From: Vitis vinifera
Taxonomy: Eukaryota > Streptophyta > Magnoliopsida > Vitales > Vitaceae
Length of the DNA: 64,000 nucleotides
NCBI RefSeq assembly: GCF_030704535.1
Contig: NC_081822.1
Coordinates: 8,102,501 to 8,166,500, forward strand
Reading direction: 5' to 3'
Shown here: positions 1 to 48,780 of the stretch, piece after piece
Layout of the letters: every line of letters begins with the position of its first letter
Position numbering within the stretch: position 1 is the stretch's first letter
Program-made: the position numbers and the translations under genes
The notes under the pieces: generated by a model
Told to the model about the DNA's origin: nothing
What the model saw: the letters and a program-made list of their open reading frames with translations, nothing else
Databases searched by the model: none

Positions 1-7
1 AGAAACG

Positions 8-94
8 ATGCCTGCACCATTGGTCTTGCTTATTCTCAATCTGCTTCTATCTTCCCCAATTTCGTCAGCTACTGTTTCCACTTGGAGTGCTTAG
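8..94 (+). pseudogene. RLK signal-peptide remnant, copy 1
   Basis: This is the start of an RLK gene cut off after its signal peptide. It reads 28 codons from an ATG (Met-Pro-Ala-Pro, a Leu-rich core, then SSATVSTWSA) and stops at TAG (92-94). It is clearly related at DNA level to the first codons of the A genes but more diverged than they are from each other, so it comes from another paralogue. Straight after it comes a copied piece of A-gene upstream sequence. The same remnant recurs at 16734, which marks it as part of the duplicated unit. It is not expected to be functional. Confidence 0.6.
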
Positions 95-581
95 GAGCCA
101 AAATCTGACCCGCGGTTGAAAGGAAAATGCACAATTATTGAAGTGGACAAAGACTTTTGACCTCATTTGTGGAAGCTAGTCGTTTTTTCAAAGATGAGGC
201 CGGAGCTTGGAACCTGGGGCATTCATGTTCCATCATCATCATTAATATTATTGCAAGTAGCTTTCCTCTTTCCATGGGAATTTCTACACTCCATACAAGT
301 CAAGAGCGACTTTGTCTTTCTAGAATCATTAATATTATTCCAAGTGGCCCATTCAAAGGGAAAAGAGCACATAGAGAAAAAATTGAATCCAAACTTAATA
401 CATTGAATTTAAAATAATAAATATGTTATGTGGTTTTACATTAAATATATAAGTTTTATTTTTTTAAATGATATGGACACTATGTTTAATGTAAGACTAT
501 ATAAAATTTAAATATTATTTTTAATAATATGAAGTCAAGCTAGTCCTTGAGGTTGGATGCATCTCTGATCTCTTTGCAGCA
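95..581. repeat. Copied fragment of A-gene upstream DNA
   Basis: From 95 to about 345 the sequence parallels the region just upstream of the A genes (compare 3624-3840): the same 'cggttgaaaggaaaatgcacaatt' context, the ATCATCATCAT tract, the CCATGGGAATTTCTAC segment and the GTCAAGAGCGACTTTGTC segment. It then runs into AT-rich DNA instead of a gene. Short open frames here are not convincing genes. A shorter relative is at 16820-17030. Confidence 0.6.
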
Positions 582-2135
582 TCAAATAAAATACTTGACG
601 GTGGCATGTTGTGTTGGACCCTTGTAGTTGTTGGTTGTGCAGGGCGGATCAACTTGATTAGCTTTTGTAGCAGATTGTAAGCGTGGCTCTCAAAATCTTA
701 AGGGACAGAAATGAAATTTACTCTAATAATATATATAGACACATAAAGATAAAAAATATACTATTATCCTTTTTTCATATAGTATTGTATCTTGTTTAGA
801 ATACATAATCACTCTAAGTAATTGTATTACCCAATAAATTATACCTAGTTTTAGTGACGGAACCAACAATTTGATCTAAGGGTGGCGACTTTTAATACAT
901 ATATGGATTTAGCCCAATAGTCAAGACTTATTATTGTTGAGGGAGACATTATTAGTTTTGAGTTTAAATCCTCCTATTGTAAGAATTGAATCTTTTATTT
1001 TCTAACATTTTCACAAGGGGAGATGGCTCCCCTAGGCCCTACTTGGCTCAGGCCGGTGCCGAGTTTATTGATTGATGGTGTTTGAATCTATTTATTTTTT
1101 ATTCTTAACATTTTCAAGGGGTAGGTGCCCTTAGGCCCAATCTAGTTCTACTAGTATCTATTTTATTGATCGATGGTGTTTGAATATATTCTTTATAAAA
1201 ATTTTCTATTTTTTATTTTAGTTAATATTTTATTTAAATTATTAAGTTAGTTTTAAACTGCATGCATTATTAATTTATTGCATCAAGTACAATAAAATAA
1301 GAAAATAATATACTCTATCCCACTAAATAAGTTCATTCAACGGTATTTCAAAAAGTAATTTTCAAATGATATAAGGAAGTTACAAAATTACACCCAAAAA
1401 AAATTCTCTTTCAGTTAAATTATATCTTATATTTAATTATTACTAAAAATAGAATATTTAATTGTACTTTTATTCATACCCCATATTATTATAATGGATG
1501 ATAAGTCGGTATAGGTAGATTAATACTATGATTGGTTTCAAAAAAACTATTAAGAAAAGAAAAAAAATATTAAAAAAAAAAGGTTTTTAATATCTTATTT
1601 TAGTATGAAAAATAAAAAATAAGATATAATTAAAATTAATTAAAAACTTATATATTTTTAAATTATTTGATATTGACATAAAAAAAAGTATATTAACTTG
1701 AATGAGTTTAAGATAGTATATAAAATAATTTATCAGCTTTTAATCTTTTTTTTTCTTTTACTTTTACATTATACTTAAAAAGATATATAAATGGAGAAAA
1801 AAATATACTAAATAAAATAAATTTATCTATATATAAAAATAATTTATTAATTTAAAATCTATTTTTATTTCCTTTAACTTTTCTTTCCTTTTCTTTTTTT
1901 TTTTTCTTATATTTCTTTTTCCATATTTTCCAAATACTTCACATATTGCTCCACTCCCAATTTTTTTCCCTCCCCTCAAAATTTCAAAACCAAACATAAA
2001 ATACAAACACAAGTGTAAAGTTTGTATCTTTGTGAAACTCATGTAATCTTGACCATAGGAACCTTCCCACACAATTAATTTCCTACAAAGGAAGGTGGCA
2101 ACATGTCATTGGGTGAGTGTCTTAGGAGACAAAAT
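582..2135. repeat. A-unit upstream block, copy 1
   Basis: This AT-rich block of about 1.55 kb recurs upstream of A2 (17167-18656), A3 (32083-33653) and in part A4 (54575-55061 plus 56697 onward). It contains a SINE-like stretch (about 900-1075) and an internal near-repeat of about 105 bp ('ttattgattgatggtg', near 1060 and 1165). No credible coding frame is present; the frame at 1827-2072 on the minus strand is low-complexity Lys-rich sequence. It ends at the insertion point of the 2136-3623 element. Confidence 0.65.
900..1075 (+). repeat. Possible tRNA-derived SINE relic
   Basis: TAGCCCAATAG (910-920) resembles a Pol III A box and GAGTTTAAATCC (960-971) resembles a B box about 40 bp further on. 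The copy at about 32400 is closer to consensus in both (TAGCTCAATAG, GAGTTCAAATTC). A third copy is near 17490. There is no clear 3' tail or target duplication. All three lie inside the duplicated block, so they are one ancestral insertion at most. Confidence 0.35.
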
Positions 2136-3623
2136 GGGCTTTTTTAGCTTTTGTAGCAGTTTTAAAAAATAATTATTAAAAAATGGTAGTTGAGAAAATA
2201 TTGATAGATCTACGGTAATTTTGGTCATGTGGAAGGTGTCTTTTGAAGAGAAGAGACACATTCCACAATTTTCAAAATCACGAAAGAATTGAATTTAAGA
2301 TAAAGGTCTCTTGAAAAGACACTTTTCATATGGCAAAAAATCCAATATGCATTAAAGGTATCTCTTGAAGAGACACCTTCCATAATTTGACAAATTTGAA
2401 TGTCTCATGATTTTAAAACTAAAGATATCTCTTGAAGAGACATGACCTTTTACGATTCCTAAAAATTTTAATTTATACAAAATGTGTCACTTGAAGAGAC
2501 ACTTTCCACAATTCCACAAATTCCAACATATACTAAAAATTGTAGAAATGATTTTAAAGTGAAAAATGTCTCTCTTCAACATAAATTCGAAATTTTCTAC
2601 TGTGTATGAAAAATCGGGTTTATACCAAAAGTGTCTCTTCAAGAAACACTTTCCACCAGAAAATTAGATTTATACTAAGGTATCTCTTGAAAAGACACTT
2701 TCCACAATTCCACAAAATTCAATATATATTAAAAATTGTAGAAATGATTTTAAAGTGAAAAATGCCTCTCTTCAACATAAATTCGAAATTTTCTACTGTG
2801 TATGAAAAATCGGGTTTATACCGAAAGTATCTCTTTAAGGGACACTTTTCACCAAAAAATTGGATTTATACTAAGGTGTCTCTTGAAAAGACACTTTCCA
2901 CAATTCCACAAAATCCAATATATATTAAAAATTGTAGAAATGATTTTAAAGTGAAAAATGTCTCTCTTCAACATAAATTTGAAATTTTCTACTATGTATG
3001 AAAAATCGGGTTTATACCGAAAGTGTCTCTTTAAGAGACACTTTCCACAATTTTCATACATAGTAGAAAATTTCGAATTTATGTTGAAGAGGGATATCTT
3101 TAACTTTAAAATCATTTCTACAATTTTTAATACATATTGGATTTTGTGAAATTGTGGAAAATGTCTTTTCAAGAGATACCTTTAGTATATATCGGAATTT
3201 GTGGAACTATGGAAAGTGTCTTTTTAAGTGATACCTTTTGTATAAATTAAAATTTTTAAGAATTGTAGAAAGTGTCTCTTCAAAAGACTTCTTTAGCTTT
3301 AAAATCATGAGACATTCAAATTTTTCAAATTATGGAAGGTATCTCTTGGAAAAGACACCTTTAATGCATATTAGATTTTTTATCATGTGGAAAATATCTT
3401 TTCAAGAGACACCTTTAATATAAATCCAATTTTCTGAAATTATAGAAAATGTCTCTTCAAGAAATACTTTTAATTTAAATTCAATTCTTTCATAATTTTA
3501 AAAATGGAAGGTATCTATTCAAAAGACACCTTCCATGTAGCGTTGTAGATATATCAATATTTTTCTAACTACCATTTTTTAATAATTATTTTTTAAAATT
3601 GCTGCAAAAGTTAAAAAGGCCCC
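2136..3623. mobile_element. TIR/foldback element with palindrome array (element 1)
   Basis: This 1.49-kb insertion sits between the upstream block and the A1 promoter. The left end (GGGCTTTTTTAGC) and the right end (TTAAAAAGGCCCC) are inverted copies, and the match runs for about 100 bp through 'aaataattattaaaaaatgg'. The inside holds about 21 short palindromes with a core like GTGTCTCTTGAAGAGACAC, roughly every 60 bp, so the whole element can fold into a long hairpin. The A2 site at about 18650 and the A3 site lack it; compared with them, two bases (CT) are missing and no target duplication is visible. No transposase is encoded. Frames inside it are palindrome artefacts. I read it as a non-autonomous element, probably Mutator-like by its long TIRs, but the missing duplication leaves the class open. 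Confidence 0.75.
2535..3030. repeat. 196-bp tandem repeats inside element 1
   Basis: The motif AAAAATTGTAGAAATG starts at 2535, 2731 and 2927, exactly 196 bp apart each time. About 2.5 copies are present, each carrying several of the palindromes. They lie only in the left arm, which makes the foldback asymmetric around about 3030. Confidence 0.8.
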
Positions 3624-3937
3624 GACCGGCGGTTGAAGGGAAAATGCACAATTATTGAAGTGGAAGGAGACTTTTAACCTTGTCTGTGGAAGCTGGGTCG
3701 TTTTCAAAACACGAGGCTGCAGCTTGGAACCTGGGGCATTCATATTCCATCATCATCATTGTTAACATTTTTATTCCATCTAGCTTTCATCTTCCCATGG
3801 GAATTTCTACCATCCGCACAAGTCAAGAGCGACTTCGTCTTTTCCATAAATATTAGTATTATTTGTGTGCTCCTTCCCAGAATTTGATTCAAGCTCAGCA
3901 TTACGGCCTTTTCAACTGATCCAATTTCATAGATCAC
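3624..3937 (+). promoter_or_regulatory. A1 proximal promoter and 5' UTR
   Basis: About 314 bp conserved upstream of all four A genes, and all that remains between element 1 and the A1 ATG. A TATA-like ATAAATAT is at 3846-3853, about 85 bp before the ATG. A W-box core (TTGACT on the minus strand) is at 3821-3826, a WRKY-type site. The same pair is kept in A2 (18857-18862, 18882-18889), A3 (33837-33842, 33862-33869) and A4 (56905-56910, 56930-56937). The conservation is partly just recent duplication, so regulation is inferred. Confidence 0.45.
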
Positions 3938-6343
3938 ATGGATGCGCCAGTTCTTTTGCTTCTTCTCACTCTGCTTCTATCTTCTCCACTTCCATCGTCC
4001 ACCCTCGACAGTTTGAGTCAAGGCTCATCCCTCTCAGTTGGGAAGCCTGAACAAGTTTTGATTTCACAAAGTGGAATCTTCTCAGCTGGCTTCTACCCCG
4101 TCGGTGATAATGCTTATTGTCTTGCCATATGGTTCACCAAACCATCCTACGAAGGCAAACATATCGTTGTTTGGATGGCAAACCGAAACCAACCAGTTAA
4201 TGGGAATTTCTCAAAGCTTTCCCTGCTAAAAAGTGGTGATCTTATCTTAACAGATGCTGGGCGGTTCATAGTTTGGACCATAAAGAGGGTTGGGATTTCT
4301 CCGGTGCAATTACACCTCTTCAACACTGGTAACCTTGTGCTGCGTACCTCGGATGGTGTTATTCAATGGCAAAGTTTCGATTCACCAACAGATACCCTTC
4401 TCCCTCACCAACCACTCACCAGAAATACGAGGCTTGTCTCTTCAAGAACCAAAACCAACTTTTTCCCAGGGTTTTATTATTTCTATTTTGACAACAATAA
4501 TGTCCTCATTCTTGTCTTCGATGGGCCAGACGCTTCAAGCATTTACTGGCCCCCATCGTGGATGGAAAACTGGCAGGCGGGAAGATCGGCATACAACAGC
4601 AGCAGAATTGCATTACTAGATTACTTTGGCTGTTTTTCCTCAACCGACGATTTTGGGTTTCAGTCCTCGGATTTTGGTGAGAAAGTCCAAAGAAGATTGA
4701 CCCTGGATATTGATGGCAACTTACGATTATACAGTTTTGAGGAAGGGAGAAATAAGTGGGTTGTTACTTGGCAAGCCATCACGCTACAATGCAACATCCA
4801 TGGAATATGCGGACCCAACAGTATTTGTACCTATGTGCCTGGTTCTGGGAGTGGAAGGAGATGCTCTTGCATACCTGGATATGAGATGAAAAATCGCACT
4901 GACCGAACTTATGGATGCATACCAAAATTCAATCTTTCTTGCGACTCACAGAAGGTTGGTTTCCTCCTACTCCCACACGTTGACTTCTACGGCTATGATT
5001 ATGGCTATTACCCTAATTACACCTTAAAGATGTGTGAAAAACTGTGCTTGGAAATATGTGGCTGCATAGGATTTCAATACAGCTATACTTCGGATGTTTA
5101 TAAATGTAATCCTAAGCGGCTGTTGCTCAACGGATACCGCTCGCCTAGTTTTGTAGGACATATATATCTAAAATTGCCTAAAGCTAGTCTTCTTTCCTAT
5201 GAAAAACCGGTTAAGGAATTCATGTTAGATTGCTCAGGCAACCGCTCAGAGCAGCTAGTAAAATCTTATGCAAAAGCCCACGAAAATGAAGTGTTATTAA
5301 AGTTCATCCTCTGGTTTGCGTGCGCAATTGGAGCAGTTGAGATGGTTTGCATCTGTATGGTGTGGTGTTTCTTGATGAAGGCCCAGCAAAACACCAGTAC
5401 AGATCCTCCAGGCTACATTTTAGCTGCCACGGGATTCAGAAAATTCACCTATACTGAGCTGAAGAAAGCAACACGGGGTTTCAGCGAGGAGATTGGAAGA
5501 GGAGGAGGTGGGGTTGTATATAAAGGTGTCTTGTCAGACCACCGAGTGGCAGCCATCAAGCAGCTCAGTGGAGCTAACCAAGGAGAATCTGAATTCTTGG
5601 CAGAAGTAAGTACCATTGGGAGGTTTAACCACATGAACTTGATAGAGATGTGGGGTTATTGCTTTGTGGGGAAGCACAGGCTCTTGGTTTATGAATACAT
5701 GGAGCATGGATCACTAGCACAAAACCTCACTTCCAATACACTTGATTGGCAGAAGAGGTTCGATATTGCGGTGGGCACAGCAAAAGGCCTGGCTTATTTA
5801 CACGAAGAGTGCTTGGAGTGGGTTCTACACTGCGATGTGAAGCCTCAAAACATACTCCTAGACGTTAATTGTCAGCCAAAAGTGGCAGACTTCGGCCTGT
5901 CAAAGTTACAGAACAGAGGAGGAATCAACAATTCGAGATTGTCGAGGATCAGAGGAACAAGAGGTTACATGGCTCCAGAATGGGTTTTGAACCTCCCCAT
6001 CACCTCCAAAGTAGACGTTTATAGCTATGGTATTGTGGTTCTGGAGATGGTTACCGGCCGAAGGAGTGCTTCAATGGCCATCCACGGTACAGATGGCATA
6101 GGGGAACGTCAGAGTTTGGTGGCATGGGTGAAAGGGAAGATGAATGGAGCAACTGCAGTTGCTTCGTGGATGAAAGAAATCCTAGACCCGTCGATGGAAG
6201 GCGAATATGACATGGGTGAGATGGAAATTCTAGTAGCAGTGGCTTTGCAATGTGTGGAATTGGACAAGGATGAAAGACCCACCATGAGTCACGTGGTCGA
6301 GACGCTTCTCCGCCCTGAACGTGGAAACAATCTTCACTACTAA
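3938..6343 (+). CDS. A1: G-type lectin S-receptor-like Ser/Thr kinase (ZmPK1-like)
   Basis: This intronless gene encodes an 801-residue single-pass plasma-membrane receptor kinase. Domains: signal peptide about 1-22; bulb-type lectin about 40-155; S-locus glycoprotein region about 200-280; EGF-like Cys cluster 285-327; PAN-like about 335-415; membrane span about 453-480; kinase about 518-790. Kinase landmarks are the Gly-rich loop GRGGGG (520-525), Lys541, HCD at 631-633, Asn638, DFG at 651-653 and APE at 679-681. HCD in place of HRD makes it a non-RD kinase. The start is the first ATG before a hydrophobic signal and is shared by all A copies. A1 differs from A2-A4 by one extra Leu in the membrane span (453) and by F563, V577, C645 and H785 at otherwise constant kinase positions. 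It is bracketed by two palindrome-array elements. Its ligand is unknown. Confidence 0.93.
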   Translation: MDAPVLLLLLTLLLSSPLPSSTLDSLSQGSSLSVGKPEQVLISQSGIFSAGFYPVGDNAYCLAIWFTKPSYEGKHIVVWMANRNQPVNGNFSKLSLLKSGDLILTDAGRFIVWTIKRVGISPVQLHLFNTGNLVLRTSDGVIQWQSFDSPTDTLLPHQPLTRNTRLVSSRTKTNFFPGFYYFYFDNNNVLILVFDGPDASSIYWPPSWMENWQAGRSAYNSSRIALLDYFGCFSSTDDFGFQSSDFGEKVQRRLTLDIDGNLRLYSFEEGRNKWVVTWQAITLQCNIHGICGPNSICTYVPGSGSGRRCSCIPGYEMKNRTDRTYGCIPKFNLSCDSQKVGFLLLPHVDFYGYDYGYYPNYTLKMCEKLCLEICGCIGFQYSYTSDVYKCNPKRLLLNGYRSPSFVGHIYLKLPKASLLSYEKPVKEFMLDCSGNRSEQLVKSYAKAHENEVLLKFILWFACAIGAVEMVCICMVWCFLMKAQQNTSTDPPGYILAATGFRKFTYTELKKATRGFSEEIGRGGGGVVYKGVLSDHRVAAIKQLSGANQGESEFLAEVSTIGRFNHMNLIEMWGYCFVGKHRLLVYEYMEHGSLAQNLTSNTLDWQKRFDIAVGTAKGLAYLHEECLEWVLHCDVKPQNILLDVNCQPKVADFGLSKLQNRGGINNSRLSRIRGTRGYMAPEWVLNLPITSKVDVYSYGIVVLEMVTGRRSASMAIHGTDGIGERQSLVAWVKGKMNGATAVASWMKEILDPSMEGEYDMGEMEILVAVALQCVELDKDERPTMSHVVETLLRPERGNNLHY

Positions 6344-6387
6344 TAAATTAATGCCTCGTATGGGGCCCAAGTGAGGTGGCTTTCTGT

Positions 6388-7428
6388 CTTTTCTCAATAG
6401 TACAGTAATTTAAAAAAATTATGCTTAAATTATTGTAGTAGAAGAAGTTATTACAAATATATGGTAGTTTTTGCCACATAGGAGAGAGGAGAGAGGGTGA
6501 GAGGGTGAGAGAGGAGAGAGGAGAGAGGGTGAGAGAGAGGAGAGAGGAGAGAGGGTGAACGGATAAATTTTTTTAAAAAAGGGAACTCGTCTCTTAAAGA
6601 GACGAGTTCCATGAAAAAAAAAATCCTATTTACTCAAGGGAACTCGTCTTTTCAAGAGACAAGTTCCATGAAAAAAGACAAGGGAAAGACGAGTTCCCAG
6701 GGAAAAATAATATTTTTTTTTTTAAATTATTTTTTATTTAAAAAAAATCCTAAATTAAATTTAAAAAAAAAAAATTTTCTAAAGGGAACTCGTCTCTTTG
6801 GGAAATTTTTTTTTTTTTAAATATATTTTTTATTTAAAAAAAAACCCAAATTAAAAAAAAAAATTCCTAAAGGGAATTCGTCTTTTCAAAAGACAAGTTC
6901 CCATGTAAAAAAATTTTTTTTTTTTTAAATATATATATATTTTTTTAAAAAAATTTCCTAAAGGGAACTCGTCTCTTGAAGAGACGAGTTCCATGGGAAA
7001 AAAAATATTTTTTTTTTAAAATATATTTTTTGTTTTAAAAAAAATCTCAAATTAAAAAAAATAAAAAAAAATCGAAGAGACGAGAAAAAAAATATTTTTT
7101 TTTAAAATATAAGAGACGAGTTCCCTTTAGGAATTTTTTTTTTTTAATTTGGGATTTTTTTTAAATAAAAAATATATTTTAAAAAAAATATTTTTTTTTT
7201 CCTATGGGAACTCGTCTCTTCAAGAGACGAGTTCCCTTTAGGAATTTTTTTTTAAATATATATATTTTAAAAAAATATATATATATTTTTTTACATGAGA
7301 ACTCGTCTCTTCAAGAGACGAGTTCCCTTTAGGAATTGTTTTTTTTTTTTAATTTATTTAATATATATTTAAAAAAAAAAATTTTACATGGGAACTCGTC
7401 TCTTGAAGAGACGAGTCCCTTTGGAATT

Positions 7429-7463
<35 letters not shown>

Positions 7464-8664
7464 TTGGGATTTTTTTTAATAAAAAATATATTTAAAAATA
7501 TATATATTTTTTTCCCATGGGAACTTGTCTCTTGAGTTCCCTTTAGGAATTTTTTTTTTAAATATATATATTTTAAAAAAAAAAATATTTTTTTTTACAT
7601 GGGAACTTGTCTCTTCAAGAAACGAGTTCCCTTTAGGAATTTTGAGGAATTGTTTTTTTTTTTAATATATATATTTAAAAAAAAATAAAGAGACGAGTTC
7701 CTTTTGGAATTGTTTTTTTTTTTTTTTTTTTTTAATTTGGGATTTTTTTAAATAAAAAATATATATTTTTTTAAAAAAAAAATTTTCCCAAAGGGAACTC
7801 GTCTCTTGAAGAGACGAGTTCCCTTTAGGAATTTTTTTATTTTATTTTTTTTAATTTGGGAACTTTTTTTAAATAAAAAATATATTTAAAAAAAAATATT
7901 TTTTTTCATATGGGAACTCGTCTCTTCAGACGAGTTCCCTTTAGGAATTTTTTTTTTTAAATATATATATATTTTTTTAAAAAAAATATTTTTTTTACAT
8001 GGAAACTCGTCTCTTGAAGAGATGAGTTCCATTTAGGATTTTTTTTTAAATAAAAAATATATTTAAAAAAAATATTTTTTTTTCCCATGGGAACTCATCT
8101 CTTGAAGAGACGAGTTCCTTTTAGGAAATTTTTTTTTTTTAATTTGGGATTTTTTTAAAATAAAAAATATATTTAAAAAAAATATTTTTTTTCCCATGGG
8201 AACTAGTTCCCTTTAGTTCCAAATTGTTTTTTTTTTTTTTTAATTTGTGAATTTTTAAAAAAAATATATATATATTTTTTTAATGAGAACTCATCTATTG
8301 AAGAAACGAGTTTCCTTGAAGAATTGTCTTTTTTTTTTTTTTTTTTAATTTGAGAATTTTTTTAAAAATATATATATATATATTTTTTCATGGAACTCGT
8401 CTCTTGAAGAGACGAGTTCCCTTGAGTAAATGGGGAATTTTCTTTAAAAAAAATATATTTTTTTTTTCATGGAACTCGTCTCGTCTCTTGAAGAGACGAG
8501 TTCCCTTTTTTAAAAAAATTTATCCGTTCACCCTCTCTCCTCTCTCCTCTCTCCTTTCTCCTCTCTCCTATGTGGCAAAAACTACCATATATTTGTAATA
8601 ACTTCTTCTACTACAATAATTTAAGCATAACTTTTTAAAATTACTGTACTATTGAGAAAAGTCC
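6388..8664. mobile_element. Mutator-like TIR element with palindrome array (element 2)
   Basis: This 2.28-kb insertion begins 44 bp after the A1 stop codon. It is flanked by a 9-bp direct repeat GCTTTCTGT (6379-6387 and 8665-8673); the empty sites after A2 (about 21411), A3 and A4 carry that 9-mer once. A 9-bp duplication with long TIRs is the Mutator-like (MULE) signature. The TIR runs about 200 bp: an outer 95 bp (CTTTTCTCAATAG against CTATTGAGAAAAG), then a GAGAGAGGGTGA-type simple repeat, then AACGGATAAATTT. The right end has three extra bases (TCC) with no partner on the left. No transposase or captured gene is present, so it is non-autonomous. Confidence 0.85.
6585..8512. repeat. Array of about 22 GGGAACTCGTCTCTT palindromes
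   Basis: The inside of element 2 is a string of near-perfect 31-bp palindromes: GGGAACTCGTCTCTT and its inverse joined at a central G or C. They are spaced about 90 bp apart by A-tracts, T-tracts and AT-rich filler. Well-preserved examples start near 6963, 7207, 7300, 7391, 7795, 8393 and 8475; others are half units or carry mismatches. The filler also reads as inverted repeats (ATTTTTTATTT against AAATAAAAAAT), so each module and the whole array can fold. Confidence 0.88.
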
Positions 8665-8673
8665 GCTTTCTGT

Positions 8674-10507
8674 ACCTGTTCCGCCCATTTATGATATTTG
8701 TAAAAGAACAGAGTAATTTTAAGTAGAATAATTGAGAAGCCAAATCTTTTGATACAACATACAATATAATTATATTGAAGTGTAAAAAGATACAACTTGG
8801 TTGTAAGTTTTAATCTCAACCTTCTCAAATGTTAAGCAAAAAATTATTTAATTTTTTTTTAAAACAAATCTTTAATATTATGTCACTGTATTAAAGTATT
8901 TCTTAAGAGGTAACTTGATTACCAAAAGTTGATATTATTTTTTAATTCAAATTTATAATTATAATTTATAAATAAATTTTTAATTATTATAAAATACAAA
9001 ACTTCTTACTTGATCAATTAGAATGGATGATCATTTATTCCCTTATATCTCTTCAATATTGTTGCTACCCACGTGCCTATTTTATATAAGATAAAGATTT
9101 TACTAATAAATATTACATAGAATTTTGTTCCCAATATCTGTCCTTCATTGCTTAGGAAATTTTGATGAATGTGAAAGGGAAATGGAAAATTGTGGGTCAC
9201 CATATAACATAGAAGGACAAAAATGGCATTTTATTGGTCTTGCATAGATGGAGGTGGAAATGGGGCAACACATCAAATCTGACATGGTGGATGACATGTA
9301 AAATACAATATTAAATAATGATTGAAAATGAAATGAATCGAGTCACCCAGCAAAAGTCTATTTTCAAGTATTTCATTAGATTTTTTTTTTTCAACCCAGG
9401 ACCTCTTTCTGTAAATTTATTATTAAAAATATTTTAATCCCTAACTTTTTGTGAGTGTCTTTTCGTAAACCTGTTGACCTAAACTAATTGAGGTTATGTT
9501 TGGCTTTCCCAAAAGAAACAAAAATACTAAAAATATAATGTTTTTTCTCTTATTTATATATTTTTAAATTATTTAATCTAAAACAATGAAAGGTAAATAA
9601 AATTTTATAAAAATAATTTATTAATTTTAAATTCTTATTTTATTTTTATTCATTTGACATACCTTCGATAATTAGTATAAAATTAATATAAATGTTTCAT
9701 ATATAATCAGTTTACATACAATATATATTATGTACAAACTTGAACATAATGAATGAGATAGTGTATGTGCATAAAGAATGTACGTTAGTGCATTGGTGTA
9801 AAATTCAATAAAGTGTTTTATACATATTTTGTACAACTAGTATACACCCTTTGTACATTGTTAACAAGGGAAAAAAAAAATAGATAGAAGTGTAAGAGTA
9901 AAATCAATGTATTCGTTTCGTTTGAATCAAACAAGAAAATTGAAAGAAAATATTTAAAATATATTTATGATAGGGGCCTTGAAGTGTATCTCGTTGGCAA
10001 TGCATATCTTTTATTGATCAAACACTTTTTTTGCTTAGCAAAGAGGTAGAAAATGTTTTTCAATGATTTGACATGAAATTCAAATAAGAAAACAAAATGT
10101 TAACAAATAATTTCAATTACTGAAAAATAATATTTGCAAACATTCATTCTTGATAGTTGATTGGATTTTATAATACTCGGATGAAAAACATATATAATGT
10201 GAAACCTTGGACTCATTTCACAGTCAATTTCTTTAAATTTTAATATTACAAACTAAACATTTGTACAAATGGTACAAGTTAGTATCTTTTTATGTAATTA
10301 ATTATTGTGAAGACATTTTATCTTTTTCATTTACCCAAGAATAATCATACTAATATAAACAAATAATTTTGATCATGCACAGATAAATATTCTTCTTCTT
10401 CGCTCTATCTCATGTGGTTGGATTTGGAGCATGGACCGTTTGTATTATTCAATTGTGGAAGACCAATTTCAATGAGTTGAAAGACCAATGGGCCATGGGG
10501 AGCAATG
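8674..10507. other. A1 3' flank, no gene seen
   Basis: AT-rich DNA that aligns with the A2 3' flank from about 21420 to 23504, with small indels. No coding frame is supported. The match stops abruptly after GGGGAGCAATG (about 10507). In the A2 and A3 units the flank goes on to a B gene; here a retrotransposon fragment follows, so this unit has lost, or never had, its B partner. Confidence 0.7.
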
Positions 10508-12125: not shown

Positions 12126-13492
12126 CATAAAGCCCAGGATGCCCCGTGAGAGCTTGGACCTTGATGAGGTTTTTGGTGTGTTTTGGATATGAAGTCAGCC
12201 ATGACTCGCCCTTTCATTGCCAGCCTGGGTTGATACTTGATTCTATACTCACTTAGTTCAATGGTCCACTTTACCAGTCTCCTGGATAGGTCTGGTTTGT
12301 GCAGAATGTTTATGAGTGGTTGATTTATGAGTACAATCACTTAATGAGCTTAGGAATAGGGATGGGGCTTTTGCGCAACACTCCTCAAGGCTAAGGCTGT
12401 TTGTTCTATCTTTGAATACCGGGTTTCTGTGTCAACCATTGCTTTGCTTACGTAATAGACGAGCCTTTGCTCCTTGTCATTTACGCAACAGAATAAAACA
12501 ACACTGACAACACAATCAAACACTGCTAAGTACATGTATAATTACTCACCAAGTTGAGGGCTACTTAGAATGGGAGGCTAAGTAAGGTAGCGTTTAATCT
12601 TCTCGAATGCTAGCTCACAATCACTTATCCACCTTGTCACGTTAGCTTCTTTCAGTGTGAGGAAGAAGAACCTTAACTTGTCTGTAAATCGGGTTATAAA
12701 GTGTCCTAATGCAACTAGTTGACACGTGAGGCGTTGCAAGTCCTTATTACAATTTGGGGTGAACGTCTCCATGACGACCTTGATTTGGTTCGGATTGACT
12801 TCTATCCCTCTTTGTGTAACCATGAACCCTAAGAACTTGCCTGCATTGACTCCAAAGGCGCACTTGGCTAGATTCAGCTTCATATTGTACGCTTTCATCA
12901 AACGAAAGGTTTCTTGTAAATGCCAAGCGTGCTTGCTCCTGGTTTTGCTTTTTACCACAATGTCATCGATATATACTTCCACAGTCTGGCCGATTAATGG
13001 CTTGAAAACTTTTGTCATTAGTCTCTGGTAGGTGGCTCCGACATTTTTAAGTCTAAACGACATGACCTTGTAGCAATATATTTCGTGTGGTATCACAAAA
13101 GAGGTCTTCTCATCATTTGGTTGGAATATGGGAATCTAATGGTAACCGGAGAAAGCATCTATGAAAGAGAGTATTCTATGCCCAATAGTGGAGTCGACTA
13201 TCTGGTTTATCCATGGCAATGAGAAGCTATCCTTCGGGTAGACATCATTCAGGTTGGTGTAGTCAACATAGACTCGTCATTTGCCTCTTTTTTTTGGGAC
13301 GACCACCATATTTGCTAACCACTCTGAATATTCTACTTTCCTGATAAACCCGGCCGCCGGTAATTTTTCTACTTTGGATTGGATGAATTTTTGCCTATTC
13401 GGGTGGAAGTGTCGGACCTTCTGGCGGATAGGTCGTGAGAAAAAGATAATATTGAGCCGATGTGAGGCTATCGATGGATGAATTCCGGGCAT
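12125..13492 (-). pseudogene. Reverse transcriptase and RNase H of Tat-like element, broken
   Basis: The 13277-13492 piece carries the RT N-terminal part (GFIRKVEYSEWLANMVVVPKK). The 12578-13096 piece holds the palm with the catalytic YIDD in VEVYIDDIVVKSK, then FLGFMV. The 12350-12535 and 12125-12340 pieces cover the first RNase H and connection (VKWTIELSEYRIKYQPR). The four pieces are not joined in one frame. Confidence 0.75.
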
Positions 13493-18656: not shown

Positions 18657-18973
18657 TCTGACCGGCGGTTGAAGGGAGAATGCACAATTATTGAAGTGGA
18701 CGGAGACTTTTAACCTTATCTGTGGAAGCTGGGTCATTTTCAAAACACGAGGCTGCAGCTTGGAACCTGGGGCATTCATATTCCATCATCATCATTGTTA
18801 ACATTTTTATTCCATCTTGCTTTCATCTTCCCATGGGAATTTCTACTATCCGCACAAGTCAAGAGCGACTTTGTCTTTTCCATAAATATTAGTACTATTT
18901 GTGTGTTCCTTCCCACAATTTGATTCAAGCTCAGCCCTACGGCCTTTTCAACTGATCCAATTTCATAGATTAC
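18657..18973 (+). promoter_or_regulatory. A2 proximal promoter and 5' UTR
   Basis: About 317 bp conserved with the other A genes. W-box core at 18857-18862 (minus strand), TATA-like ATAAATAT at 18882-18889, ATG at 18974. Unlike A1, it joins the longer upstream block without an insertion. Confidence 0.45.
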
Positions 18974-21379
18974 ATGGATGCGCCAGTTCTTTTGCTTCTT
19001 CTCACTCTGCTTCTATCTTCTCCACTTCCATCGTCCAACCTCGACAGTTTGAGTCAAGGCTCATCCCTCTCAGTTGGGAAGCCTGAACAAGTTTTGATTT
19101 CACAAAGTGGAATCTTCTCAGCTGGCTTCTACCCCGTCGGTGATAATGCTTATTGTCTTGCCATATGGTTCACCAAACCATCCTACGACGGCAAACATAC
19201 CGCTGTTTGGATGGCAAACCGAAACCAACCAGTTAATGGGAATTTCTCAAAGCTTTCGCTGCTAGAAAGTGGTGATCTTATCTTAACAGATGCTGGGCGG
19301 TTCATAGTTTGGACCATAAAGAGGGTTGGGATTTCTCCGGTGCAATTACACCTCTTCAACACTGGTAACCTTGTGCTGCGTACCTCGGATGGTGTTATTC
19401 AATGGCAAAGTTTCGATTCACCAACAGATACCCTTCTCCCTCACCAACCACTCACCAGAAATACGAGACTTGTCTCTTCAAGAACCAAAACCAACTTTTT
19501 CTCAGGGTTTTATAAGTTCTATTTTGACAACAATAATGTCCTCATTCTTGTCTTCGATGGGCCGGACGCTTCAGGCATTTACTGGCCCCCATCGTGGCTT
19601 GTAAGCTGGCAGGCGGGAAGATCGGCATACAACAGTAGCAGAACTGCGTTACTAGATTACTTTGGCTATTTTTCTTCAACCGACGATTTGAAGTTTCAGT
19701 CCTCGGATTTTGGTGAGAGAGTCCAAAGAAGATTGACCCTGGATATTGATGGCAACTTACGATTATACAGTTTTGAGGAAGGGAGAAATAAGTGGGTTGT
19801 TACTTGGCAAGCCATCACGCTACAATGCAACATTCATGGAATATGCGGACCCAACAGTATTTGTACCTATGTGCCTGGTTCTGGGAGTGGAAGGAGATGC
19901 TCTTGCATACCTGGATATGAGATGAAAAATCGCACTGACCGAACTTATGGATGCATTCCTAAATTCAATCTTTCTTGCGACTCACAGAAGGTTGGTTTCC
20001 TCCTACTCACACACTTTGAGTTCTACGGCTATGATTATGGCTATTACCCCAATTACACCTTACAGATGTGTGAAAAACTGTGCTTGGAAATATGTGGCTG
20101 CATGGGATTTCAATACAGCTATACTTCGGATAATTATAAATGTTATCCTAAGCGGCTGTTGCTCAACGGATACCGCTCGCCTGGTTTTTTAGGACATATA
20201 TATCTAAAATTGCCTAAAGCTAGTCTTCTTTCCTATGAAAAACCGGTTAAGGAATTCATGTTAGATTGCTCAGGCAACCGCTCAGAGCAGCTAGTAAGAT
20301 CTTATGCAAAAGCCCACGAAAATGAAGTGTTAAAGTTCATCCTCTGGTTTGCGTGCGCAATTGGAGCAGTTGAGATGGTTTGCATCTGTATGGTGTGGTG
20401 TTTCTTGATGAAGGCCCAGCAAAACACCAGTACAGATCCGCCAGGCTACATTTTAGCTGCCACGGGATTCAGAAAATTCACCTATACTGAGCTGAAGAAA
20501 GCAACACGGGGTTTCAGTGAGGAGATTGGCAGAGGAGGAGGTGGGGTTGTATATAAAGGTGTCTTATCAGATCACCGAGTGGCAGCCATCAAGCAGCTCA
20601 GTGGAGCTAACCAAGGAGAATCTGAATTCTTGGCAGAAGTAAGTACCATTGGGAGGCTTAACCACATGAACTTGATAGAGATGTGGGGTTATTGCTTTGA
20701 GGGGAAGCACAGGCTCTTGGTTTATGAATACATGGAGCATGGATCACTAGCACAAAACCTCACTTCCAATACACTTGATTGGCAGAAGAGGTTCGATATT
20801 GCGGTGGGCACAGCAAAAGGCCTGGCTTATTTACACGAAGAGTGCTTGGAGTGGGTTCTACACTGCGATGTGAAGCCTCAAAACATACTCCTAGACGTTA
20901 ATTATCAGCCAAAGGTGGCAGACTTCGGCCTGTCAAAGTTACAGAACAGAGGAGAAATCAACAATTCGAGATTGTCGAGGATCAGAGGAACAAGAGGTTA
21001 CATGGCTCCAGAATGGGTTTTGAACCTCCCCATCACCTCCAAAGTAGACGTTTATAGCTATGGTATTGTGGTTCTGGAGATGGTTACCGGCCGAAGGAGT
21101 GCTTCAATGGCCATCCACGGTACAGATGGCATAGGGGAACGTCAGAGTTTGGTGGCATGGGTGAAAGGGAAGATGAATGGAGCAACTGCAGTTGCTTCGT
21201 GGATGAAAGAAATCCTAGACCCGTCGATGGAAGGCGAATATGACATGGGTGAGATGGAAATTCTAGTAGCAGTGGCTTTGCAATGTGTGGAATTGGACAA
21301 GGATGAAAGACCCACCATGAGTCAGGTGGTCGAGACGCTTCTCCGCCCCGAACGTGGAAACAATCTTCACTACTATTAA
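18974..21379 (+). CDS. A2: G-type lectin S-receptor-like Ser/Thr kinase (ZmPK1-like)
   Basis: Intronless, 801 residues, with the same domain order as A1: signal peptide, bulb lectin, S-locus region, EGF-like, PAN, one membrane span, non-RD kinase. It is a near-identical paralogue of A1 and A3. It has one residue fewer in the membrane span than A1 and one more at the C-terminus, because the A1-type TAA became TAT and translation ends at the next TAA (HYY). Ectodomain changes relative to A1 include K187 for F and a cluster at about 209-212 (LVSW). All kinase landmarks (GRGGGG, Lys, HCD, DFG, APE) are present, so it looks functional. It is convergent with B1, 3.5 kb away. Confidence 0.94.
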   Translation: MDAPVLLLLLTLLLSSPLPSSNLDSLSQGSSLSVGKPEQVLISQSGIFSAGFYPVGDNAYCLAIWFTKPSYDGKHTAVWMANRNQPVNGNFSKLSLLESGDLILTDAGRFIVWTIKRVGISPVQLHLFNTGNLVLRTSDGVIQWQSFDSPTDTLLPHQPLTRNTRLVSSRTKTNFFSGFYKFYFDNNNVLILVFDGPDASGIYWPPSWLVSWQAGRSAYNSSRTALLDYFGYFSSTDDLKFQSSDFGERVQRRLTLDIDGNLRLYSFEEGRNKWVVTWQAITLQCNIHGICGPNSICTYVPGSGSGRRCSCIPGYEMKNRTDRTYGCIPKFNLSCDSQKVGFLLLTHFEFYGYDYGYYPNYTLQMCEKLCLEICGCMGFQYSYTSDNYKCYPKRLLLNGYRSPGFLGHIYLKLPKASLLSYEKPVKEFMLDCSGNRSEQLVRSYAKAHENEVLKFILWFACAIGAVEMVCICMVWCFLMKAQQNTSTDPPGYILAATGFRKFTYTELKKATRGFSEEIGRGGGGVVYKGVLSDHRVAAIKQLSGANQGESEFLAEVSTIGRLNHMNLIEMWGYCFEGKHRLLVYEYMEHGSLAQNLTSNTLDWQKRFDIAVGTAKGLAYLHEECLEWVLHCDVKPQNILLDVNYQPKVADFGLSKLQNRGEINNSRLSRIRGTRGYMAPEWVLNLPITSKVDVYSYGIVVLEMVTGRRSASMAIHGTDGIGERQSLVAWVKGKMNGATAVASWMKEILDPSMEGEYDMGEMEILVAVALQCVELDKDERPTMSQVVETLLRPERGNNLHYY

Positions 21380-24927: not shown

Positions 24928-27336
24928 TCAGGACATGGAGAGGTAGCCGTCCTCCTCCGGCCTCTCCTCCGGGCACATAAGCTTCTCAACTATCTGGCTC
25001 ATCGTGGGTCTTGAGTCCCTGTCTTCCTCCACACATTCCAAGGCAACTCCAATCAGAATTTCCATCCGGCGCAGGTCGCATTCGCCTTGCATCACAGGGT
25101 CCAGGATGTCTTCAATCCACGACCCCCTGGCACCAATCCCATTCATTCGATCCCTCACCCATTTAATCAACCCACGCTGCTCTGTCTCTCCTTGGGCATC
25201 AGTATCGGGGATAGCAGTTGGGCTCTTCCCTGTCACCATCTCCAAAACCACGATTCCATAGCTATAAACGTCTACCTTGGAGGTTATGGGAAGGTTGAAT
25301 ACCCATTCAGGAGCCATGTATCCTCTGGTTCCTCTGATCCTCGAGAAACTTGAATTGTCAAGCCCTCCTCTGTTTCGCAGTTTCGACATCCCAAAATCGG
25401 CCACTTTTGGCTGGTAATTAGAGTCCAAGAGTATGTTCTGAGGCTTGACATCACAGTGCAGAACCCACTCCAAGCATTCTTCGTGTAAATAAGCTAGGCC
25501 TCTGGCCGTGCCAAGCGCTATTTGGAACCTCTTCTCCCAATCAAGAGTATTGGAAGATAGCTTTTGTGCCAAGGATCCATGTTCCATGTACTCATACACC
25601 AACAGCCGGTGCTTCCCCTCTATGCAATATCCCCACGTCTCTATTAAGTTCATGTGATTAAGCCTTCCAATGGTGCTCACTTCTGCTAGAAATTCTGCTT
25701 CTCCTTGATTGGCTTCTTTGAGGCGCTTGATTGCTGCCACTCGACGATCAAGCAATACACCTTTATATACCACTCCTCCACCTCCTCTTCCAATCTCTTG
25801 GGTGAAACCTCGCGTGGCCTTCTTCAACTCTGCATAGCTGAATCTTTTAAACCCGTTTGCAACGAGGATGTAGCCTTGCATGGTCGAGACTGGATCATGG
25901 TGTACCCAAAATAAGAAAAGCCATACCAGCAAGACAATTGCCCCCTCTAGAACTCCCAGTACGTAGGCAAACCACAGCAAAAACTTCAATGACCCATTTT
26001 CGTGGCCCTTGCGATATGTTGTATCTAGCTGTATATAACGAGTGTTGCCTGAACAATTTATGGTGAATTCTTCAAGAGGATCATATCTGGGAAAGAGACT
26101 AGCTTTAGGCAGTTTTAGATACATGGTTCCAGGATAATTTGGCGAACTGAATCCATTAAGCAAGAGGGTCTTTGGGTAACAACCGTAAAGGCCGTCGCTA
26201 AAATTTAGCAGGAAGGCCTTGCATTTGCACAACTGTAAGCATAGATTTTCACAGCTTTCATAGGTGTAATTGGGGTAGTGACCATAGTCATAGCCGTAGA
26301 GTTGAACATGAGGGAGTGGGAAGAAGCCCACCTCAGTTTGGTTACAAGCGATATCAGTTTCTGGTGCGCACCCATAAGACCAGTCAGTTGAATTTACAAT
26401 CTTGAATCCAGGCATGCAAGAGCATCCTCTGCCATAAGCAGGGGTGTAACTGCAGAGACTGTTGGGTCCGCAGATGCCATGAATCTGGCATGGTTGGGAG
26501 ATAGCCTGCCATGAAACCGACCAGGTTCCTCTCGTTTCTTCTAGACTATACATTCTAAGATTGCCATCGAAATCGAGGGCCAATCTTCTCTGAGGCCCCG
26601 CACCAAAATCCGCTGACCGAAATTCCAAATCATCTGATGCTCTATAATAACCCAAAGAATCGAATACTGCGATTCGACTGTTGTTGTATGTGCTTCTTCC
26701 AGCATCCCAGGTCACCAGGCTTGGGTCTGGCCAGTAGATGCTGGAAACCTCAGTACCATTGAAGAGAAGGCGGATGACGTTATCACTGTCAAAAAATAGC
26801 TTATAAAAACCAGAAGAATAGTTGCTTTGGCTTCTTGAGGAGATAAGGCTGGTATCTTTGGTCAGTATCTGGTGAGGAAGAAGAGTATCTGTGGGTGAGT
26901 CAAAGCTCTGCCAAATCACCGTCTTCTCCCAAGCATATAGAACAAGATTGCCGGTGTTAAGGAGCTGTAATCTCGCAGATGAGGTTGAAACGGTGTTGAT
27001 CATCCAAACCATGATTTTACCAGCATCAGTTAAGAGGAGATTGCCATTCCTCAACAAAGAAAGCTTGGAGCCTCTACCGTTGACCGGTTGGTCACGGTTC
27101 GCCATCCAAACTGTGGTTGCACCCCATGATTTTGTAAACCATATGGCGAAGCAGAAAGTGTTGTTGCCGACCTGATAAAACCCAGCAGAGAATATACCAT
27201 TTGCTGAAATGAGAAGATCATTTGATTTCTCCACGGAAAGAGACGAGCCTTCGCTCAGAGTATCATACGTTTCAGATGAAGATGGATAGCAAGTTAATAG
27301 CAAAGCCAAAACAAAGAAACCAACTGTCCTATCCAT
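24928..27336 (-). CDS. B1: G-type lectin S-receptor-like Ser/Thr kinase (ZmPK1-like)
   Basis: Intronless receptor kinase, 802 residues from the chosen ATG (27334-27336). Domains: signal peptide about 1-22 (MDRTVGFF then Leu-rich); bulb lectin about 35-145; S-locus region; EGF-like Cys cluster about 283-323; PAN about 330-410; membrane span about 450-478; kinase about 512-785 with Lys537, HCD ending at Asp629, DFG from 647 and GTRGYMAPEW from 669. It is non-RD, like the A genes. The frame stays open 62 codons further upstream, but those codons would bury the signal peptide and change faster between B1 and B2 than the body, so the inner ATG is preferred. B differs from A mainly in the ectodomain, juxtamembrane region and C-tail. 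This is the only complete, intact B gene in view. Confidence 0.93.
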   Translation of the reverse strand: MDRTVGFFVLALLLTCYPSSSETYDTLSEGSSLSVEKSNDLLISANGIFSAGFYQVGNNTFCFAIWFTKSWGATTVWMANRDQPVNGRGSKLSLLRNGNLLLTDAGKIMVWMINTVSTSSARLQLLNTGNLVLYAWEKTVIWQSFDSPTDTLLPHQILTKDTSLISSRSQSNYSSGFYKLFFDSDNVIRLLFNGTEVSSIYWPDPSLVTWDAGRSTYNNSRIAVFDSLGYYRASDDLEFRSADFGAGPQRRLALDFDGNLRMYSLEETRGTWSVSWQAISQPCQIHGICGPNSLCSYTPAYGRGCSCMPGFKIVNSTDWSYGCAPETDIACNQTEVGFFPLPHVQLYGYDYGHYPNYTYESCENLCLQLCKCKAFLLNFSDGLYGCYPKTLLLNGFSSPNYPGTMYLKLPKASLFPRYDPLEEFTINCSGNTRYIQLDTTYRKGHENGSLKFLLWFAYVLGVLEGAIVLLVWLFLFWVHHDPVSTMQGYILVANGFKRFSYAELKKATRGFTQEIGRGGGGVVYKGVLLDRRVAAIKRLKEANQGEAEFLAEVSTIGRLNHMNLIETWGYCIEGKHRLLVYEYMEHGSLAQKLSSNTLDWEKRFQIALGTARGLAYLHEECLEWVLHCDVKPQNILLDSNYQPKVADFGMSKLRNRGGLDNSSFSRIRGTRGYMAPEWVFNLPITSKVDVYSYGIVVLEMVTGKSPTAIPDTDAQGETEQRGLIKWVRDRMNGIGARGSWIEDILDPVMQGECDLRRMEILIGVALECVEEDRDSRPTMSQIVEKLMCPEERPEEDGYLSMS

Positions 27337-28030
27337 GAGTTTTGGGATATGGTTTATGTGCTCTGTTTCCTGATCAGATATTTGCAATGGAGAATGCAAG
27401 TGTACGGTGCTACCAGAGTTTAGAAAATAAATTGACTCCTTGACTGGGGTGAAGGGGGGAAATTCACATTGCCCCTCGGGCCAAGTTTTGCTTGTGCCAT
27501 CGTGTTGGGTTTCTAAAAGCATTTCATGTCAACGTCAAAATAATGGGATGAAGACCCGCTATTTTTAATGGGATCTATTTTGATTGGATGACTTGGGCCA
27601 TTCAAATTTTGTAGTTTCCACTTGGAACAACAAAATTATTATGAGATACGTCATTTTGAAGAAAGATTCTAGAAATAAGATGTTAAATTGATCTCTTTTC
27701 CATGTAGCTGAACTCGTCAACTGTGAGTCTGAGCCATATGATTTCTGTGCCATACAGAAGCTTATTGTTCCAAGTTGCCTGTTCAAAGGTTGACCTGTGA
27801 ACAGTTTGGATCCAAATACAATGAATGTGATGAAATTTACTGAAACCGGGACTCTCTGACTGGCCTGTGGCCTTTATGAGTTTTATTTTAGAGGTGACGT
27901 CTGATGTTGATTGGCCCAAGCAGGGAAAGATCAAATGGGAAACGACGGTCACAACTTGTGGGGTGACTTACCATTCACCAAGTAACACTTCAAAGAAATT
28001 AATCGAGCCAATGGATTTCACAAGTTCCCT
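27337..28030. other. B1 5' region
   Basis: Promoter and 5' UTR side of B1, conserved upstream of B2 (51112-51780) at high identity. Two TTGAC cores lie side by side on the minus strand near 27530-27540, possible W-boxes. No separate gene is supported. The homology to B2 stops near 28007, where B1 has about 690 bp that B2 lacks. Confidence 0.5.
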
Positions 28031-33653: not shown

Positions 33654-33953
33654 CCAGCGGTTGAAGGAAAAATGCACAATTTAACTTATCTGTGGAAGCT
33701 TGCCCAGCTGGGTCGTTTTCCAAAACACGAGGCTGCAGCTTGGAACCTGGGGCATTCATATTCCATCATCATCATTATTAACATTTTTATTCCATCTAGC
33801 TTTCACCTTCCCATGGGAATTGCTACCATCCGCACAAGTCAAGAGCGACTTTGTCTTTTCCATAAATATTAGTATTATTTGTGTGTTCCTTCCCAGAATT
33901 TGATTCAAGCTCAGCCCTACGGCCTTTTCAACTGATCCAACTTCATAGATGAC
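33654..33953 (+). promoter_or_regulatory. A3 proximal promoter and 5' UTR
   Basis: About 300 bp matching the other A promoters. It keeps the W-box core (33837-33842, minus strand) and the TATA-like box (33862-33869). It has a short rearrangement at about 33680-33715, where the AATTATTGAAGTGGAC segment is replaced. Confidence 0.45.
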
Positions 33954-40886: not shown

Positions 40887-41224
40887 TGTTGGAAATCAAG
40901 CCAGCATCCTCTGTTTACTTCCCTAATTAGTGTAATGTACAGCCTTTATTATAATTGATTTAGGAGTAATTCTAGCAAGGTAGTTTATTCACTTTCCATG
41001 TAAGAGTAGTTTATTCACTTCCCATGTAAGAGTAGTTTATTCACTTCCCATGTAAGAGTTTATTCACTTTCCATGTAAGGGAAATTCCATTCCGGAATTG
41101 TCTCATATCTGTAGGCTATTTATTTATGCTTTCATTCATTGTAAAGGGTGAGATCACGGAATGAATTGAGGTGTTCCTCCATAGTTTGTCTTCAAATTCT
41201 TCATATTTTTCTTCAAATTCTTCA
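40887..41224. mobile_element. Solo LTR, 338 bp, in B2
   Basis: TGTTGGAAATC to CAAATTCTTCA, with TG...CA ends, flanked by AAGAG (40882-40886) and AAGAT (41225-41229), a 5-bp duplication with one change. B1 has the empty site (TTCAAGAGGATC). The size and TGTTGG start suggest a Ty1/copia-type LTR. Inside are three or four copies of an 'agtttattcacttcccatgt' unit near 40980-41075. No internal retrotransposon sequence remains, so it is a solo LTR left by recombination. Confidence 0.8.
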
Positions 41225-48605: not shown

Positions 48606-48780
48606 GATGTCCTAAAATAATAAGGCATAACTAAATTAGTCACTAAAGAACCAATTAGAAAATTTTCCAATTAAAGAAAGAATTGGAATTTATACTAAAT
48701 GAAACTAAAACTTAAACAAATGCGTTACTCATCTATCCCTAATCTAAACCAATTCAAATTCCCATCAAGATCAAAACCTA

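Follow-up and report, generated by a model that had tools for sequence, protein, structure and literature searches.

Near the start of a 64,000-nucleotide stretch of the Vitis vinifera genome (contig NC_081822.1, positions 8,102,501 to 8,166,500 of the forward strand; the whole stretch is called the window), two palindrome-packed inverted repeats, E1 and E2, raise the question of what they are and whether they have a common origin. Both are head-to-head arrays of a 15-letter palindrome core, GTCTCTTSAAGAGAC, between terminal inverted repeats (TIRs). Very probably, E1 and E2 derive from two sister families of MuDR-type Mutator-like elements (MULEs) in grapevine, of which they are non-autonomous foldback forms. 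Elsewhere in the genome, MULE/MuDR transposase domains lie between the same ends. The target-site duplication has 9 bp in E2, and exact 10-bp duplications flank 15 of 22 E2-type and 4 of 6 E1-type copies; MULEs duplicate about 9 bp of their target, with a range of 8-11 bp. The outer TIRs are long (78 nt, 90%, and 109 nt, 97%). The confidence expressed here applies to the nature and origin of the elements; the binding of a transposase to the palindrome is rated separately. The parts of the two elements are, by position in the window:

2136..3623, no strand assigned: E1, probable non-autonomous foldback MULE of the E1-type family, 1488 bp, bounds from paralog breaks
2136..2213, plus strand: left TIR of E1, beginning GGGCTTTTTTAGCTTTTGTAGCAG, 78 nt, 90% complementary to 3545-3622
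2238..3527, no strand assigned: palindrome array of E1, 19 sites at up to 4 mismatches (12 left, 1 central, 6 right)
2471..3048, plus strand: 196-bp tandem repeat, 2.9 copies, 92% match, which lengthens the left arm of E1
about 3028: inversion centre of E1, located by a complementarity of 0.81 over 129 bp, with arms of about 893 bp (left) and about 595 bp (right)
3545..3622, minus strand: right TIR of E1, inverted-repeat partner of 2136..2213
6379..6387, plus strand: left target-site duplication of E2, GCTTTCTGT, single copy in paralogs
6388..8664, no strand assigned: E2, probable non-autonomous foldback MULE of the E2-type family, 2277 bp, bounds from paralog breaks
6388..6496, plus strand: left TIR of E2, 109 nt, 97% complementary to 8553-8661
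6480..6558, plus strand: GA-rich subterminal repeat (GAGAGAGGAGAGAGG), mirrored at 8532-8569
6589..8497, no strand assigned: palindrome array of E2, 16 sites at up to 4 mismatches, 5 to the left and 11 to the right of the centre
about 7100: inversion centre of E2, with arms of about 712 bp (left) and about 1564 bp (right)
8553..8664, minus strand: right TIR of E2, minus strand starting GGACTTTTCTCAATAG
8665..8673, plus strand: right target-site duplication of E2, GCTTTCTGT, from paralog comparison

The extent of both insertions was obtained by aligning block 1-9000 to the other receptor-kinase repeats within the window. The kinase-block paralogs break at 2135/3624 (E1) and 6387/8665 (E2). Empty sites of E1 are found in the paralog copies near 18658, 33650, 56745 and others, those of E2 at 21412, 36392 and 59460, where GCTTTCTGT is single and reads GCTTTCTAT at 59460. 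The three other plus-strand kinase blocks used as empty sites are 95-97.5% identical to 3624-6387. The tip of the left E2 TIR is 3 bases shorter than the right end and than other E2-type copies, so trimming may have reduced a 10-bp duplication to the present 9 bp. An earlier note, made from the letters alone, had placed the elements correctly to the base or nearly, as judged by the paralog break points. It had also described both as non-coding, and no stop-to-stop frame of at least 120 amino acids occurs within E1 or E2. The segment TGGTAGTT, which it had assigned to the TIRs of both, is present in both.

Core matches with up to 3 mismatches number 34 in the window, 29 of them inside E1 and E2, against 1.06 expected; 34 was reached in 0 of 100 shuffles. 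At a limit of 3 mismatches of 14, E1 holds 16 cores, and at a limit of 4 it holds 19; the numbers for E2 are 14 and 16. The same note had given about 20 palindromes for each element, every 60 bp in one and every 90 bp in the other. The arrays are there, with somewhat lower counts, and its spacings agree with the main gap classes (13 of 18 gaps at 49-68 bp in E1, 8 of 15 at 84-93 bp in E2), not with a regular period. E1 has a central 196-bp tandem unit (84+63+49), and the remaining gaps of E2 are 57 and 106-243 bp. The symmetrised arm of E1 reads GGAAAGTGTCTCTT, with several positions below 70%. E2 repeats a 31-bp palindrome, GGGAACTCGTCTCTTSAAGAGACGAGTTCCC, among AT-rich spacers; its symmetrised arm before the centre is GGGAACTCGTCTCTT, and the unit orientation flips at the centre. 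Of its CATG-side markers, all 8 forward ones lie right of the centre and all 4 inverted ones left. Forward markers of the CCTTTAGG type are located on the right in 10 of 11 cases, with one (6796) on the left, while the 5 inverted AAAGG-type matches (two overlapping patterns) are all on the left. The centre of E1 has 5 of 6 TGTGGAA-type markers to its right and 8 of 9 TTCCACA-type markers to its left. As in foldback elements, the arms are long, take up most of the element in inverted orientation, contain internal repeats and vary in their number of units.

The kinship of E1 and E2 was traced through their TIRs. Their alignment begins at base 25 of the left E1 TIR and at bases 22-25 of E2, and its similarity score was reached by 0 of 300 shuffles in each of four pairings. 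Among 6000 real 110-bp pieces of the window, none reached the score for the left E1 TIR and 9 did for the right one; the evidence from within the window alone is therefore moderate. Copies elsewhere in the genome extend the comparison. On contig C3, a coding element has a right end of the E1 type that agrees with the E2 TIR in 67 of 95 aligned columns, beginning at the very tip (0 of 2000 shuffles). The E1-type end of locus L010 matches the E2 end at 72% over 94 bp, and the end of locus L012 is intermediate, with 83% to E2 and 69% to E1. These alignments settle the homology of the TIRs, and a common descent of E1 and E2 is supported.

The exact core occurs 2347 times in 495.6 Mb of genome, its reversed control not once; the window itself belongs to contig C18. 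With one additional base on each side, 587 occurrences fall into the E1 class (TGTCTC..GAGACA), 1540 into the E2 class (CGTCTC..GAGACG) and 220, by subtraction, into others. Nine clusters, those heading the list and all on contig C1, were opened, and each had an E1- or E2-type TIR match at an edge. The match is full-length in L005, L006, L008, L010, L011 and L013, and partial or diverged in L007, L009 and L012. Independent satellites or simple repeats, arisen by chance in two unrelated miniature inverted-repeat transposable elements (MITEs), would agree with the tandem spacing of the cores and with the resemblance of the AT-rich spacers to simple sequence. They are contradicted by the matching ends of the nine clusters, by the target duplications that bound the arrays and by the homologous TIRs, which leaves this explanation virtually without credit. 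A chance simple repeat is ruled out by the 2347 exact cores against none in the control and by the shuffle test.

Searches with the TIRs returned families of both types, their counts being lower bounds. For E2, all 40 scored candidates, out of 360, matched at 97-100%, E2 included. The first 125 bases of E1 gave at least 42 genome matches, at 87-94% besides E1 itself (174 candidates, 40 scored). Both ends were paired in 22 of 23 re-examined E2-type loci, a sample drawn from the best TIR matches and hence biased to well-kept copies. The sample omits L008 and L009, unpaired earlier; L054 stayed unpaired, its left end being beyond the examined stretch, and L046 and L063 were re-paired, since the first pairing had used an internal piece. 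Of the 22 copies, 15 are flanked by an exact 10-bp duplication, 2 by one with a single mismatch and 2 by an exact one of 9 bp; in 3 it is absent or poor. They measure 889-5115 bp and carry 4-34 cores (up to 2 mismatches), length and core number being correlated (r=0.74). The copies with arrays have moved, since target duplications flank them. L052 (C3:17788643-17794427; 4791 bp) has the most cores of the sample, 34, and an exact 10-bp duplication; its very long array did not prevent movement, unless the array grew later. L051 (C5:1989468-1991941) is flanked by 15-bp sequences that are exact reverse complements, as if the site were a larger inverted duplication.

Six E1-type copies, those showing both ends among the 42 matches, were chosen by eye. 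The duplication, likewise read by eye, is an exact 10-bp one in four of them (C7, C17, C10 and C2) and imperfect in those on C4 and C19. A further locus, C18:2115107-2115376, was excluded, because its two E1-type ends face apart with 38 bp between them, as in adjacent or nested copies.

A coding relative of E2 is located at C9:1138168-1152452. This 14,285-bp element has exact E2 ends at 1138168 (plus strand) and 1152452 (minus strand), facing inward. Its flanks, TATAGGATAG and TATAGGATAA, match as a target duplication at 9 of 10 positions, so both ends belong to one insertion. At up to 3 mismatches, the left 2.4 kb holds 17 cores (12 exact) and the right part 10 (8 exact); sequence resembling the GA-rich subterminal repeat of E2 is present inside both ends. 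The middle 5.9 kb may contain nested insertions. A mudrA-like frame of 585 amino acids contains the Pfam domains MULE (PF10551, 2.6e-18) and DBD_Tnp_Mut (PF03108, 2.8e-11). It had no match among solved structures, and in NCBIfam only an IS256 match below the cut-off. In the genome it has 76 matches; the closest relatives have open frames of 854-860 amino acids, in comparison with which the frame on C9 may be incomplete. Transposase copies at 98% on C7 and C3 adjoin exact E2 ends in matching orientation, one end being observed for each. The distance from frame to right end is 2.5 kb on C7 and 3.4 kb on C9, that to the left end 8.9 kb on C3 and 9.1 kb on C9. Another match, C5:6254659, was rejected as an E2-type element, the nearest exact E2 end being 20 kb away in the wrong orientation.

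The E1-type coding element occupies C3:10479015-10490016 (11,002 bp). An exact 10-bp duplication, TAATTTTAAA, precedes GGATTCTTGATAAATATACAGCAATTAG at 10479015 and recurs after a GGGC-type end at 10490016. The right end is of the E1 type; the left end has diverged from it, yet aligns in register with the right TIR at 72% of 75 bp. One near-core palindrome is found in the 200 bases examined at the right end. The transposase frame is 67% identical to that on C9. Frames of this kind stand beside E1-type ends at C3:10483088 (67%), C3:17601699 (67%), C11:8466007 (75%, partial) and C1:9087 (64%), at a distance of 5.0-5.5 kb at all four loci. By chance, about 0.04 end/frame pairs would be expected within 6 kb (42 ends, 76 matches, 495.6 Mb); three were observed, the C1 locus being outside this set. 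At the C1 locus, the frame and the E1-type end have between them the array L005, with 15 cores at up to 2 mismatches.

The description of E1 and E2 as unrelated-looking in the earlier note is not borne out by homologous TIRs and by transposases that are 64-75% identical between the families. Common descent, one of the two explanations it offered for the shared core, is upheld by the same TIRs and by the frames near E1-type ends, 64-75% identical to that of the E2-type element. It had proposed a search for a MuDR-type transposase between the same ends, which was positive with the elements on C9 and C3, and an inspection of genome-wide core clusters for TIR ends, which found an E1- or E2-type end in all nine that were opened.

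Other assignments were considered. Strict MITEs are shorter than about 600-800 bp and homogeneous in length, a description excluded by the 889-5115 bp of the 22 paired E2-type copies. A hAT origin, with an 8-bp duplication and a hAT transposase, is ruled out by duplications of 9-10 bp and by the MULE transposase. Rfam gave no match in the window at the gathering score. In exact searches, a 21-base stretch of the E2 palindrome matched no viral contig and one of 25 bases no bacterial or archaeal genome, which speaks against carriers outside plants. The Brassica small RNA bra-miRn20-5p shares ACTCGTCTCTT with the E2 arm, according to the accessible text of its source (PMC3936892). This link was judged to be chance. 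No published account of the palindrome or of the foldback families came up in literature searches, within their best-ranked matches and with Repbase outside their scope; a search with sequence words listed no plant-transposon paper by title among its matches.

Plant foldback elements classed as MULEs are known as FARE in Arabidopsis. The following comparisons, and the cited findings further below, extend as far as the accessible text of the sources. Mutavine-1 to -18 are from the same host genus and possess a MuDR-type transposase (Benjak et al., 2008; PMC2528002). Mutavine-1 has 17.7 kb and a TIR of 70 bp, Mutavine-2 has 11 kb and a TIR of 180 bp, neither with a listed duplication; Mutavine duplications, when present, are always of 9 nt, whereas those of the E1 and E2 families are mostly of 10. 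In this account, palindrome arrays or foldback derivatives are not described, and the word foldback is absent from its main text (PMC2528002). Families of this kind, which are of similar size, may include the E1- and E2-type coding elements. MuTAnT of Medicago shares with E1 and E2 the state of non-autonomous foldback MULEs, GGGG-type ends with a varying number of terminal G and a transposase-bearing relative. It differs in that 90% of the copies have 200-300 bp, targets are TA microsatellites, duplications have 9 nt and no array of a shared palindrome is described (PMC4486113). The Mutator/Foldback element Tm1 of root-knot nematodes resembles E1 and E2 in its composite TIRs, a variable number of tandem motifs, a Mutator-type transposase in some copies and duplications of 8-10 bp, and differs in its 13-15 bp motif, a single family and an animal host (PMC3169594). 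Galileo, of the P superfamily in Drosophila (PMC3688188), and Tetris (PMC4079207) likewise have foldback-like long TIRs with internal tandem repeats. They belong to other hosts and, in the case of Galileo, to another superfamily, and no palindrome common to two families is described for them.

In E1 and E2, two sister MULE families with coding and non-coding members retain one palindrome as the repeat unit of otherwise unlike arms, with more than 2000 genomic copies. Whether the repeated modules of foldback arms serve transposase binding becomes a testable question: the coding elements supply the protein, the two families are natural variants, and the copies with 4-34 units are a dose series. 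Annotation is corrected as well, since the duplications have mostly 10 bp and E1 and E2 are parts of two identifiable MULE families instead of unclassified inverted repeats.

For the origin and role of the arrays, the following course is proposed. In both families, the TIR arms hold one ancestral palindrome in tandem arrays. The non-coding E1-type copies look like inverted duplications of a single array-bearing end, because the coding element on C3 has the palindromic TIR at its right end only and the copies have it on both sides. Arrays would grow and shrink through unit duplication, as the 196-bp repeat and the spread of 4-34 cores suggest. A transposase, probably dimeric, would bind the palindrome at many sites per arm. 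Multiple binding would raise end recognition and compensate for length; it would also hold the core constant between families while the spacers diverge, and an inserted copy would decay freely. From the sequences, a transposase-binding module is judged the somewhat better bet for the palindrome. The 15-bp core consensus is identical between E1 and E2 and the spacers differ. Moving lineages that keep the core and single copies that decay would fit a site read by a transposase, a pattern drawn from two families. In Galileo, two internal tandem repeats hold extra transposase-binding sites; such sites in long repetitive TIRs were demonstrated there and called untested for Foldback and Phantom by the authors (PMC3688188). 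In tomato MULEs, duplicated TIRs have been associated with stronger amplification (PMC3310237).

Several results weigh against this account, either in its origin or in its binding step. E1 is without a target duplication at its empty site resolved by the paralog alignment: the closest paralog reads CAAAATCTGACCGG, the filled site CAAAAT[E1]GACCGG, and two bases are missing. Among the 22 E2-type copies, duplications are weak in L055 (none clear), L060 (8 of 10) and L051 (mutually inverted flanks). The frame on C9 is shorter than its relatives and the match on C3 has one internal stop, so neither coding element is shown to be active. The first 3.3 kb of the C3 element contains no core at up to 3 mismatches; an array at both ends is therefore not required for movement. 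Between the arms of E1, 13 of 95 sites in palindromes differ, against 15 of 225 elsewhere (p=0.052), and palindromes also differ more than spacers between the 196-bp copies. One-sided changes far exceed compensated ones (67:4 in E1, 28:1 in E2), so symmetry is not maintained within a copy and selection for palindromy there is not supported. The selection for the core that had been suggested beforehand thus finds support in the comparison of the two families alone and none within single copies.

The same decay can be explained by palindromes that are by-products without a role. This explanation shares the origin given above; long palindromes would stall replication and expand inside the foldback arms by template switching or unequal exchange, and the core would be shared ancestry that has not been erased. 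It is a possible explanation, with a lesser though considerable share of the probability. Unit numbers of 4-34 among copies sharing one TIR, the local 196-bp duplication inside E1 and the uncompensated changes agree with it. Palindromes are not conserved within E1, where the transition rate per G/C-type site is alike in palindromes and elsewhere (11/37 and 12/53, p=0.47), and E2 is mixed (palindrome against spacer differences 0/31 and 8/91; 4/31 and 6/68; 1/26 and 0/48). It is opposed by the E1/E2 comparison, in which, among the matches listed, only TIR, core and AT-rich matches appear and the core consensus is still identical. Furthermore, 2127 of the 2347 cores belong to two flank classes; the flanks have changed, but the core has not.

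The arrays may alternatively act as RNA. Read-through hairpins, small RNAs and methylation would result, and the element would survive or spread its influence via silencing. As single-strand DNA, E1 folds at -423.7 kcal/mol against a mean of -136.0 for six shuffles, and E2 at -697.1 against -243.6; a flank control of E1 length gave -130.8, its shuffles -136.2. Three well-aligned E1 arm pairs have 23 transitions and 5 transversions, against 113 and 81 in two comparisons of flanking paralogs (p=0.02), or 234 and 150 with all five (p=0.03). Such an excess is expected of methylated cytosines. It is absent from whole-element alignments (E1 143:126, E2 89:177), which include poorly aligned AT-rich spacers. 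An action as RNA accounts for the decay but not for the retention of the same core, and is considered rather unlikely.

The E1-type palindrome TGTCTC-N5-GAGACA equals an inverted pair of canonical auxin-response half-sites at a spacing of five (IR5). It has 587 perfect copies genome-wide, and a stretch of 966 bp at C1:14762-15727 holds ten of these. Counted on both strands, E1 contains 15 TGTCTC half-sites and a single perfect inverted pair. The density of half-sites is 10.1 per kb in E1; in the window, leaving E1 and E2 aside, it is 0.35 per kb. Copies beside genes carry dense sites resembling auxin elements. With CGTCTC, the E2 class departs from the auxin response element. Among auxin response factors (ARFs), AtARF5 binds inverted pairs at spacings of 5-9 bp, more weakly outside 7/8, and AtARF1 only at 7/8 (PMC10690724). 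It is an improbable hypothesis that the E1-type family spreads ready-made auxin-responsive arrays. If A-class ARFs did bind, transposons would have rewired the auxin control of nearby genes, or the family would time its movement by auxin signalling.

The gene between the two elements is the following:

3938..6343, plus strand: S-domain (G-type lectin) receptor kinase gene, between E1 and E2

E1 ends about 315 bp upstream of its ATG, and the kinase has 96% identity to a Vitis vinifera protein. It is part of a cluster of S-domain (ZmPK1-like) receptor kinases at 3920-6343, 18956-21379, 33936-36356 and 57004-59424 (plus strand) and at 24928-27528 and 39781-40914 (minus strand). The word GTCTCTTCAAGAACC, 2 mismatches off the core, occurs in the kinase coding sequence of four paralogs (4436, 19472, 34452 and 57520). 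These core-like words were judged to be chance. Frames of a Ty3-type retrotransposon (gag, protease, RNase H and integrase) are located at 44141-48611 (minus strand), and a reverse transcriptase remnant at 12578-13135 (minus strand). A GC-rich 41-bp tandem repeat of 3.7 copies at 38500-38652 lies within two overlapping frames on opposite strands.

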